NCBI RefSeq assembly: GCF_014280035.1
Contig: NZ_CP047957.1
Span: 2,170,001-2,234,000 of the forward strand
Direction: 5' to 3'
Length of the DNA: 64,000 bases
Origin: Synechococcus sp. A18-25c
GTDB lineage: Bacteria > Cyanobacteriota > Cyanobacteriia > PCC-6307 > Cyanobiaceae
Made by a program: the position numbers and the translations under genes. Each line of letters opens with the position of its first letter. The first letter of the stretch is position 1. The notes below the pieces were generated by a model that did no database searches, had not been told where the DNA came from, and saw only the letters and a list, made by a program, of their open reading frames with translations. Positions 39,223 to 54,016 of the stretch are shown here, piece after piece.

Positions 39223-40413
39223 GTGAGTCATCCCATGCTGCCAACCCCTGCCGAAGGATCGCTCAACACCGGTGTGATCAACCTCGACCACCAAGCCACC
39301 ACCCCCTGCCATCCTGCCGTGATCGAGGCGATGGAGCCCTGGTGGCGAGAGCAATGGGGCAATGCCTCAAGCCGCCAGCATCGCCTTGGGCTGACGGCAG
39401 CCGCAGCCGTCAGCTCCGCCAGGAAAGTCCTGGCCGACAGCCTCGGAGTCGAAAGCGACGAGGTGATCTTCACCAGTGGCGCCACCGAAGCCAACAACCT
39501 GGCACTGCTCGGCCATGCCCGGTTTCGCGCCCGTGCCGAAGGAGGCCCTGGGCACTTGATCAGCGTGGCCAGCGAGCATCATGCGGTGCTCGATCCTCTG
39601 CAGCAACTCAGGCAGGAAGGCTTCGAACTGACGCTGCTCACGCCCAGGCCCAATGGCCTGATTGAGCCGACGCAGCTGGAACAGGCGATCCAAGCGAATA
39701 CGCAGCTGGTGAGCGTGATGGTGGCCAACAACGAAATCGGTGTGATCCAACCCGTGCAGGAGCTGAGCACGATCTGCCACAACCATGGGATCACCATGCA
39801 CACGGATGCGGCGCAGGCCTACGGACACCTGGCGCTGAACATGCAACGCCTGGGTTGCTCGCTGCTCAGTGTCAGCGCCCACAAATTCAACGGTCCCAAG
39901 GGGATCGGGGCTCTAGTGGCGCGGAAAGGGACCGGTCTTGACCCCCTGCTCTGGGGCGGTGGTCAAGAGCAGGGGCTACGGCCAGGGACCCTGCCGGTGC
40001 CGTTGATCATGGGACTGGCTGCCGCCGCAACCCTGGCCACGGCTGATCGGGCGGCGCGGCAGACGCGGCTCGGCGTGCTGCGTGATCAGTTGTGGCATGA
40101 CCTGAAACAGCGCAACCCTGATCTCCTGCTGAACGGGGCGCTGCACCCACGCCTAGCCCACAACCTCAACATCACTGTGCCCGGGATCTCAGGGAGCCGC
40201 CTGCAGCGCGCGCTGAAATCCAAATTGGCCTGCAGCAGTGGCTCAGCCTGCAGCCGCGGGGCGCCCTCCCATGTCCTGCGTGCGATCGGGCGCAATCGCA
40301 GCGAAGCGGAAGCCTCGCTGCGCCTGAGCCTTGGCCGCGACACCACAGCCACTGACATCGAAAGCGCTGTGACCATGGTCACAGAGGCGATTCAGGCGGG
40401 TGCGATGGGCTGA
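39223..40413 (+). CDS. Cysteine desulfurase (NifS/IscS family)
   Basis: A 396-residue PLP enzyme that releases sulfur from cysteine for Fe-S clusters or thio-modification. PLP Lys221 is in VSAHKFNGPKG, and the catalytic loop has Cys343 in SSGSACSRGAPSHVL. The loop length fits class I (IscS/NifS) enzymes rather than SufS. The N-terminus INLDHQATTPCHPAVIEAM is typical. GTG 39223 or ATG 39235 could be the start. Its end overlaps the open frame of the interrupted membrane-protein gene that follows. Confidence 0.93.
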   Translation: MSHPMLPTPAEGSLNTGVINLDHQATTPCHPAVIEAMEPWWREQWGNASSRQHRLGLTAAAAVSSARKVLADSLGVESDEVIFTSGATEANNLALLGHARFRARAEGGPGHLISVASEHHAVLDPLQQLRQEGFELTLLTPRPNGLIEPTQLEQAIQANTQLVSVMVANNEIGVIQPVQELSTICHNHGITMHTDAAQAYGHLALNMQRLGCSLLSVSAHKFNGPKGIGALVARKGTGLDPLLWGGGQEQGLRPGTLPVPLIMGLAAAATLATADRAARQTRLGVLRDQLWHDLKQRNPDLLLNGALHPRLAHNLNITVPGISGSRLQRALKSKLACSSGSACSRGAPSHVLRAIGRNRSEAEASLRLSLGRDTTATDIESAVTMVTEAIQAGAMG

Positions 40414-41044
40414 CCTTGAAGCCACCTTCGATCCAAAGTCGGAAAAGCTGCCAAAGCGGCGACGTTCCGCTCAGGATGGAGCGTTCCCCAGGACCGAGAC
40501 CCTGGCTGGCAAACGACTTGATGTGCTGAAAGCTGTGGAGGATGGCTGGACCGCCTTCTGACAGTCAGCTTGGCCTTTCGTGCTGTTCGCGCTGCTGTAC
40601 GGAGTGTTGGCAACGCTGTCCCAGCAACTGCCCGAGTTTCTGCTCAAACGCACGAGCAATCCCTCACCCAGCGCTGCGGTGGTCAGCCTGATTGTCTCCA
40701 TGGTGGGCAGCATCCTGATCAGCCTTTGGGGGGCCATGGGTTTGATCCGAGACGCCTGGAAAGCACTGGACGGCCAAAAGCCTGCCTTTTCAGACATGAC
40801 GCGTTGGGACGGCGATGCCGCAGGACGCCTCTTCATCAATCAGATCGTTCCGATCATCCTGGGCCTGATCATCGGCGGGATCTGCACCGCCTTGATGGTG
40901 GGCTTATCGCAGGAGAATGGGGTTCTCGGCTTGATCCCTTTCATCACGGCAGCCGTGGTGTCCATCTACCTCATGGTGAACCAAACCTTCCTGCCGTTCC
41001 TCGTCCTGCTCCCGGATGAATCACCCATGAACAACCTCGGATGA
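40400..41044 (+). pseudogene. Polytopic membrane protein interrupted by an in-frame TGA
   Basis: The frame that encodes the membrane protein after GTG 40580 (154 residues, four hydrophobic segments, PFVLFALLYGVLATLS at its start) is also open upstream from 40400 to 40558. It is broken only by TGA at 40559-40561. Across the stop it reads LKAVEDGWTAF-stop-QSAWPFVLFALLYG, which matches the GWxxFxxxxWPFxLF pattern that opens many membrane proteins of this type. A CGA (Arg) to TGA change would explain it. Candidate original starts are GTG 40400 and GTG 40523. Either the gene is inactivated, the shortened product from GTG 40580 works alone, or the base is an error. Confidence 0.6.
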
Positions 41045-41053
41045 GGCAGGGAG

Positions 41054-41236
41054 TTGGTGAATCCGTCCAAGGGGTTGGTGCTGCTGTTGCTGATCGTAGA
41101 GATGGCGATTCTGTTGCTCGGCGCGGTGTTGTGCGGTGTGGGCCCGCTCGCTGCGTTCCCGGTGACGCTGTGCGTGTCCACGACGGCTTACAGGCAACTC
41201 TTTGGCGACACCGACAACACCGCCTTCCTGGGCTAG
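41054..41236 (+). CDS. Small membrane protein
   Basis: A 60-residue protein (TTG 41054 or GTG 41057) with two hydrophobic helices at about 7-29 and 31-46 (GLVLLLLIVEMAILLLGAVLCG and GPLAAFPVTLCVSTTAY) and a short polar tail. It starts 9 bases after the end of the interrupted membrane-protein gene, so both may be one transcript. No family is recognised. It ends 12 bases from the convergent rsmH gene. Confidence 0.6.
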   Translation: MVNPSKGLVLLLLIVEMAILLLGAVLCGVGPLAAFPVTLCVSTTAYRQLFGDTDNTAFLG

Positions 41237-41248
41237 CAACCGCCTGCT

Positions 41249-42166
41249 TCAGTCTGGGTGTCGACGCCTGGCCAGTCGCAGCTTGGCGCTGCGACTGCGG
41301 GCATTCCGCTCTTGTTCAGCGTCGTTGGCGATCAGGGGCTTGCGTGTGATGCGCTGCAGGCGTTCATCGGAAAGAAAGGCCGTCTTGACGCGCCTGTCTT
41401 CCAAGGAATGAAAGCTGATGATCGCCATCAGCCCTCCCGGCTGAAGCCAGCCAGGAGCCTTCTCAAGCAGCTGATCGAGGACCCCGAGCTCATCGTTAAC
41501 GGCGATGCGCAGGGCTTGGAAGGTCCGAGTCGCCGGATGAATGCGCCCGCGGCGCGCCTTGGGTGGGTAGCAACCCGCGACGGCGTAGGCCAAAGCGGCT
41601 GTGCCGGAATAGGCGCCACGATCGTTCAGATCCGCCTTGATGCGACGGGCAATCCGCCTGGACAGTCGCTCTTCGCCGTAGCGATAGATCAGATCAGCCA
41701 GGTCCGATTCCTCCAATCGTGAGATCAGATCAGCCGCCGTTTCGCCACCACCTCCAGGGTTCATGCGCATGTCAAGGGGGCCATCCAGGCGGAAACTGAA
41801 TCCCCGTTCCGCTACATCCAGCTGCGGACTGCTGACCCCAAGATCCGCCAGCAACAGTGCGACCGGTTCGGAAGGGGCGTAATCCGCGAAATTGGTGGCC
41901 ACGATTGTGACCCGATCGGCAAAGGACTCCAGACGTTGGGCTGCTGCGGCCCTGGCCGTGGCGTCCTGGTCGAGCCCCACCAAATGCAGCGCTGGATAAC
42001 GATCCAGCAGCAATTGGCTGTGCCCCCCACCGCCGAGCGTGGCATCCACAAACAAACCGCTCTGCCAGTGATCACTAGGGTCTTGAGCCAGCGCTTGGAG
42101 AAGCGGTTCCGCCAGAACTGGCACATGGGTGAAGGTCTGATCGGACCTGGAAGGCAGATCGGGCAT
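41249..42166 (-). CDS. rsmH: 16S rRNA (cytosine(1402)-N(4))-methyltransferase
   Basis: A 305-residue SAM-dependent methyltransferase (also called MraW) that modifies C1402 of 16S rRNA at the P site. The N-terminal [18 protein letters not shown] loop [31 protein letters not shown] and [14 protein letters not shown] are all RsmH signatures, as is the C-terminal [11 protein letters not shown]. It is divergent from ndhH, with 44 bases between starts. It is not in a division/cell-wall cluster, in contrast to many bacteria. Confidence 0.96.
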
Positions 42167-52887: not shown

Positions 52888-54016
52888 TTGCTCGACCTCA
52901 CCGACTTCAAGCGCGACCTCTCCGAGCTCACTGACCGCCTGGGCAACGCCCAGGACTGTCTTTGACGTTCCTGCACTGAACGCACGCCAACAGGACCTCG
53001 AACAGCTCGCCGCACAACCGGATTTCTGGGACGACCAGCAGAACGCCCAGAAGCAAATGCGTCGCCTCGATGAGGTGAAGGCGCAACTTCAACAGCTCAC
53101 GTCCTGGCAGGGCGCTGTCGGCGATGCCCAGGCCACGCTCGAGCTTTACGACCTGGAGCCTGACGACGACATGCTCGCCGAAGCCCAGGGCGGTTTAGAT
53201 CAGCTGCGCAGGGAGCTGGATCGCTGGGAGCTGGAACGACTGCTCAGCGGCGACTATGACAAAGAGGGAGCCGTGCTCTCGATTAACGCCGGAGCCGGTG
53301 GCACAGATGCTCAGGACTGGGCTCAGATGCTGCTGCGCATGTACACACGCTGGGCTGAGGACCAGGGCATGAAAGTGTCCGTGGACGAACTCAGCGAGGG
53401 GGAGGAAGCGGGAATCAAGAGCGCCACGATTGAAATCGAGGGTCGCTACGCCTATGGCTATCTGCGCAATGAGAAAGGCACCCATCGTCTGGTGCGCATC
53501 TCTCCGTTCAACGCCAACGACAAGCGTCAAACCAGCTTCGCTGGCGTTGAAGTGATGCCCAAGTTGGAAGAGGAAGTCGACATCGACATCCCCGAGAAGG
53601 ATCTGGAAGTCACCACCAGCCGCTCCGGTGGTGCTGGAGGTCAGAACGTAAACAAGGTGGAAACCGCCGTTCGCATCCTGCACATCCCCACAGGACTTGC
53701 GGTGCGCTGCACCCAAGAACGCTCTCAACTGCAGAACAAAGAGAAGGCGATGGCCTTGCTGAAAGCCAAGCTGTTGGTGATCGCCCAGGAACAGCGGGCG
53801 GCTGAAATCGCCGACATCCGCGGCGACATTGTGGAAGCGGCCTGGGGCAACCAGATCCGCAATTACGTGTTCCACCCGTATCAGATGGTCAAGGATCTGC
53901 GCACCCAGGAAGAGACCAACGATGTGCAGGCCGTGATGAATGGCGAGCTGGATCCCTTCATCCAGGCGCTGCTGCGCCAGGGTGTGGACAGTCCAGGACA
54001 CGACGACGAGAGCTGA
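52888..54016 (+). CDS. prfB: Peptide chain release factor 2, expressed by +1 programmed frameshift
   Basis: RF2 recognises UGA and UAA stop codons. The first 25 codons (52888-52962, TTG start, [14 protein letters not shown]...) end at CTT TGA C. Shifting +1 there and skipping T52963 joins them to the 350-codon main frame (52964-54016) to give 375 residues. In this joined numbering the anticodon-like SPF is at 205-207 and GGQ at 250-252, the same numbers as in E. coli RF2, which supports the TTG start and the shift site. An ATG at 52813 would lengthen the N-terminus. The gene is followed by DUF3285, ybeY, dgkA and trpG in a tight run. Confidence 0.92.
52951..52966 (+). promoter_or_regulatory. 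prfB programmed +1 frameshift site
   Basis: The sequence CAGGACTGTCTTTGAC carries the slippery CTT codon (52960-52962), the in-frame TGA (52963-52965) and the C after it that makes the stop weak. The AGGA upstream of CTT can pair with the 16S rRNA tail, as in E. coli, where an SD-like stretch stimulates the shift. In E. coli low RF2 slows termination at this TGA and raises frameshifting, which gives autoregulation. The main frame continues from GAC at 52964. Confidence 0.9.

Follow-up and report, generated by a model that had tools for sequence, protein, structure and literature searches.

Results

The window analysed here, a stretch of 64,000 nucleotides from Synechococcus sp. A18-25c, to judge from relatives such as UW140 and WH7803 a marine cyanobacterium of the Synechococcus type, carries the disrupted reading frame of a polytopic membrane protein between two intact genes (Table 1). 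The same cysteine desulfurase and rsmH neighbours were found at each of the loci checked, namely our own, that of the sister orthologue L002 and those of two further genomes of the genus (G043 and G010), and the membrane-protein family is kept beside the cysteine desulfurase gene across the genus.

Table 1. Features of the disrupted membrane-protein locus; positions are those of the window.
Feature	Position	Strand	Evidence or remark
Upstream neighbour: intact cysteine desulfurase-like (NifS/IscS-type) gene, stop TGA	39223..40413	+	Name from sequence resemblance
Pseudogene, almost certainly, of a ~249-aa polytopic membrane protein	40490..41236	+	tblastn and profile matches along the entire stretch
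Lost start codon, AGG	40490..40492	+	ATG/Met in 21/21 syntenic-type relatives; protein and DNA alignments
First in-frame TGA	40559..40561	+	Position varies among relatives (Ile/Thr/Ala/Cys); the closest has ATA
Residual 154-aa ORF from GTG 40580	40580..41044	+	No orthologue begins there; no sign of a separate gene
Second in-frame TGA	41042..41044	+	Arg in the majority of relatives; the closest has CGC
C-terminal part of the same pseudogene, to TAG 41234-41236	41045..41236	+	Reading frame, tblastn, alignment
Downstream neighbour: intact rsmH/mraW-like methyltransferase gene	41249..42166	-	Name from sequence resemblance

With the middle piece of the gene as query, matches were obtained in 24 of 40 relative genomes (one genome per species), all but one of these within the genus, and the family is represented in each of the 24 near-complete genomes of the genus. 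The closest intact orthologue, L002 (in genome G021), is fully open and shares about 80% amino acid identity with our copy. A genome search for a second copy or a compensating paralogue in the organism's own genome found none.

The initial annotation described a single TGA in a frame that was otherwise open from 40400 and ended at 41044. That TGA is indeed the only internal stop between 40400 and 41041, but the codon at 41042-41044 ends no gene, since the frame goes on with 63 further codons of homologous, clearly membrane-like protein (GRELVNPSKGLVLLLLIVEMAILLLGAVLCGVGPLAAFPVTLCVSTTAYRQLFGDTDNTAFLG) before it reaches the true end at the TAG; the TGA at 41042-41044 is therefore a second internal stop. 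The homology of our frame to the orthologues starts at residue 31 (40490), runs through to the TAG and flanks each of the two TGA codons on either side. With these two codons inside, the stretch to 41233 matches positions 2-249 of the 251 in the orthologue profile (E 5e-96), which is well beyond chance. The view that the sequence upstream of the first stop belongs to the gene accordingly holds from 40490 onwards, and orthologues beginning at GTG 40580, which would have spoken against that view, are absent from the orthologue alignment. It does not extend to 40400-40489, which is not protein in the relatives; several of these have a stop codon immediately upstream of their start methionine, and this stretch must consequently be regarded as non-coding. 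An N-terminal extension from GTG 40400 was ruled out, as the start codon of the relatives aligns with 40490.

Three lesions were found in this frame. At the start, the codon is AGG (Arg), in a column that holds Met in 21 relatives in the protein alignment and ATG in all four relatives tested in the DNA alignment. Where a relative has a stop immediately before its methionine, the amino acid columns were read at both stop positions. The column of the first TGA is occupied by ATA (Ile) in the closest relative and mostly by Thr, Ala or Cys in the others, so that the change from CGA to TGA proposed in the initial annotation is unsupported. The column of the second TGA holds CGC in the closest relative and Arg, Lys or Ser in most of the others, so that a C-to-T mutation of an Arg codon is plausible there. 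Homology to an intact gene across the disabling mutations, and more than one independent disabling lesion (the lost ATG and two TGA codons), were thus both found.

Relaxed selection was also evident, both relative to the sister and relative to the neighbouring genes. Among 53 positions that are invariant in other relatives our copy departs at 10, compared with 3 for the sister, and the remaining relatives mostly depart at 0 or 1 and at most at 4. When lineage-specific amino acid changes were polarised with up to 11 outgroups, 15 were found only in our copy and 3 only in the sister (binomial p 0.0075), whereas the corresponding ratios in the flanking genes, 4:2 and 5:3, are symmetric in both. 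Among the changes at conserved sites in our copy are Gly-to-Asp, Leu-to-Pro, Phe-to-Ser and Trp-to-Lys replacements. Pairwise dN/dS (NG86) was 0.28 for the gene, compared with 0.135 and 0.138 for its neighbours; the constraint that remains in this value is partly that of the sister branch and of the time before inactivation. Since no insertion or deletion separates the body of the gene from that of the sister, and the dN/dS of the pair lies well below 1, the inactivation cannot be old.

Pfam and NCBIfam returned no match above cut-off for the intact relatives. AlphaFold predicts an intact relative with confidence (mean pLDDT 87) as an all-helical protein of membrane type, and when this model was compared with the PDB nothing matched at E below 0.001. 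The strongest resemblance was to choline transporter-like proteins and CysZ, with a TM of about 0.46, too weak to name a function from. A literature search at the level of titles and abstracts found no paper on this gene.

Discussion

Taken alone, the first TGA would be explained by one base change, and it had been suggested that a sequencing error could be responsible. An error of sequencing or assembly in an intact gene would, however, have to account for three separate lesions and for 15 lineage-specific changes at conserved sites in the gene that have no counterpart in its neighbours. Given these lesions and this substitution pattern, we reject a lone sequencing error, and consider any error of this kind exceedingly improbable.

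Translational readthrough had likewise been put forward; this, or a recoding of TGA (as selenocysteine, tryptophan or another residue), would let a full protein be made. Both internal stops are TGA, the reading frame is preserved for about 248 codons, and the pairwise dN/dS of the gene is below 1, all of which would fit such a reading. Against it, neither Trp nor Cys is conserved at either TGA site in the orthologue alignment, the start codon is lost as well, and the conserved residues of our copy are eroding. Selenocysteine insertion would call for both selA and tRNA-Sec: selA was not found in the genome, and no tRNA-Sec scored above cut-off there, the best match below the gathering score being a tRNA-Ser. 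Nor is this a Trp code, in which TGA would not be a stop, RF2 would be absent and TGA would stand at conserved Trp positions; the genome encodes RF2, and TGA is the stop of 40 of the 54 long non-overlapping ORFs within the window. TGA as Trp or Sec is ruled out on these grounds, and with three lesions and eroded conserved residues we give readthrough in any form next to no credence.

The prfB gene for RF2 itself lies in the window (52957-54016) and contains an in-frame CTT TGA C site resembling a programmed frameshift site at 52960-52966, after which the second part of the gene continues in the +1 frame. The autoregulation of prfB at such a classic site depends on TGA acting as a stop, a further argument against recoding.

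The possibility of a shorter protein from GTG 40580 deserves somewhat more attention, insofar that the 154-aa ORF to the TGA at 41044 is open, as claimed, and includes several of the transmembrane helices. However, the N-terminal part of the protein and its last quarter are both missing from this ORF, no orthologue uses its GTG as a start site, and it carries several of our substitutions at sites that are otherwise invariant; the dN/dS of the segment, 0.34, is no lower than that of the remainder. Because the last quarter is missing and invariant sites are substituted, a functional product from this start is unsupported, and we regard a functional shortened protein as very unlikely. That this middle fragment is still translated and has assumed a reduced role in the membrane appears slightly less probable again.

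We are therefore left with an ordinary, fairly recent unitary pseudogene of a membrane-protein gene, formed in place, and hold this explanation to be almost certain. The recent inactivation already considered in the initial annotation is borne out by the three lesions and the eroded conserved residues. Direct evidence comes from the three lesions, the homology that flanks each of them, the excess of conserved-site changes, the single copy and the intact relatives. In such a course of events, the ancestral gene of about 249 codons would have lost its start by a change from ATG to AGG and gained two TGA stops through point substitutions, with the remaining codons drifting under relaxed selection. 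Ribosomes setting out from any upstream start that is left would halt at the first TGA; initiation at GTG 40580 would give a fragment with neither end of the protein. Judged from its sequence, the pseudogene probably yields no functional product, and the gene would appear to be dispensable in this lineage.

Loss of this gene is not confined to our genome: G043 and G010 hold differently broken copies, and since the lesions differ, these breakages are events separate from our own. The gene is hence broken in 3 of the 24 near-complete genomes of the genus, our own included, and such repeated and independent loss suggests that the membrane protein is dispensable. The membrane protein also has a second, divergent subfamily, which occurs at another locus in G010 (L059, G010:C1:1030352-1031125) and in G015 (L025, G015:C53:4699-5472), so G010 keeps a divergent homologue elsewhere while its copy at the syntenic locus is broken. 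For annotation, 40490 to 41236 should be marked as a pseudogene, not as a 154-aa gene; beyond this the finding is of little significance, although the repeated loss offers a small lead for the comparison of strains.

With regard to known families, the intact relatives show weak profile similarity to the BPSS1780 family membrane protein (NF041043; E 2e-4 to 0.4), but at about 20 bits they lie far below its curated cut-off of 90 bits and are not assigned to it. The pseudogene belongs to the same full-length family as the intact Synechococcus orthologues, for example L003 (UW140), L022 (WH7803) and L002, the last of which sits between the same two neighbours; unlike the pseudogene, these orthologues have an ATG start, no internal stops and their conserved residues. 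The copies in G043 and G010 resemble ours in being inactivated genes between the cysteine desulfurase gene and rsmH, and differ from it in how they are broken. In G043 (L045, G043:C1:447647-448399) the gene is otherwise normal and intact bar one TAG that replaces a conserved Trp (VRGS*IALDG), which reflects either inactivation in the very recent past or an error of sequencing. The G010 copy (L058, G010:C1:2457681-2458093) has lost a large internal segment and contains a TAA, which by coincidence shares the column of our second TGA.
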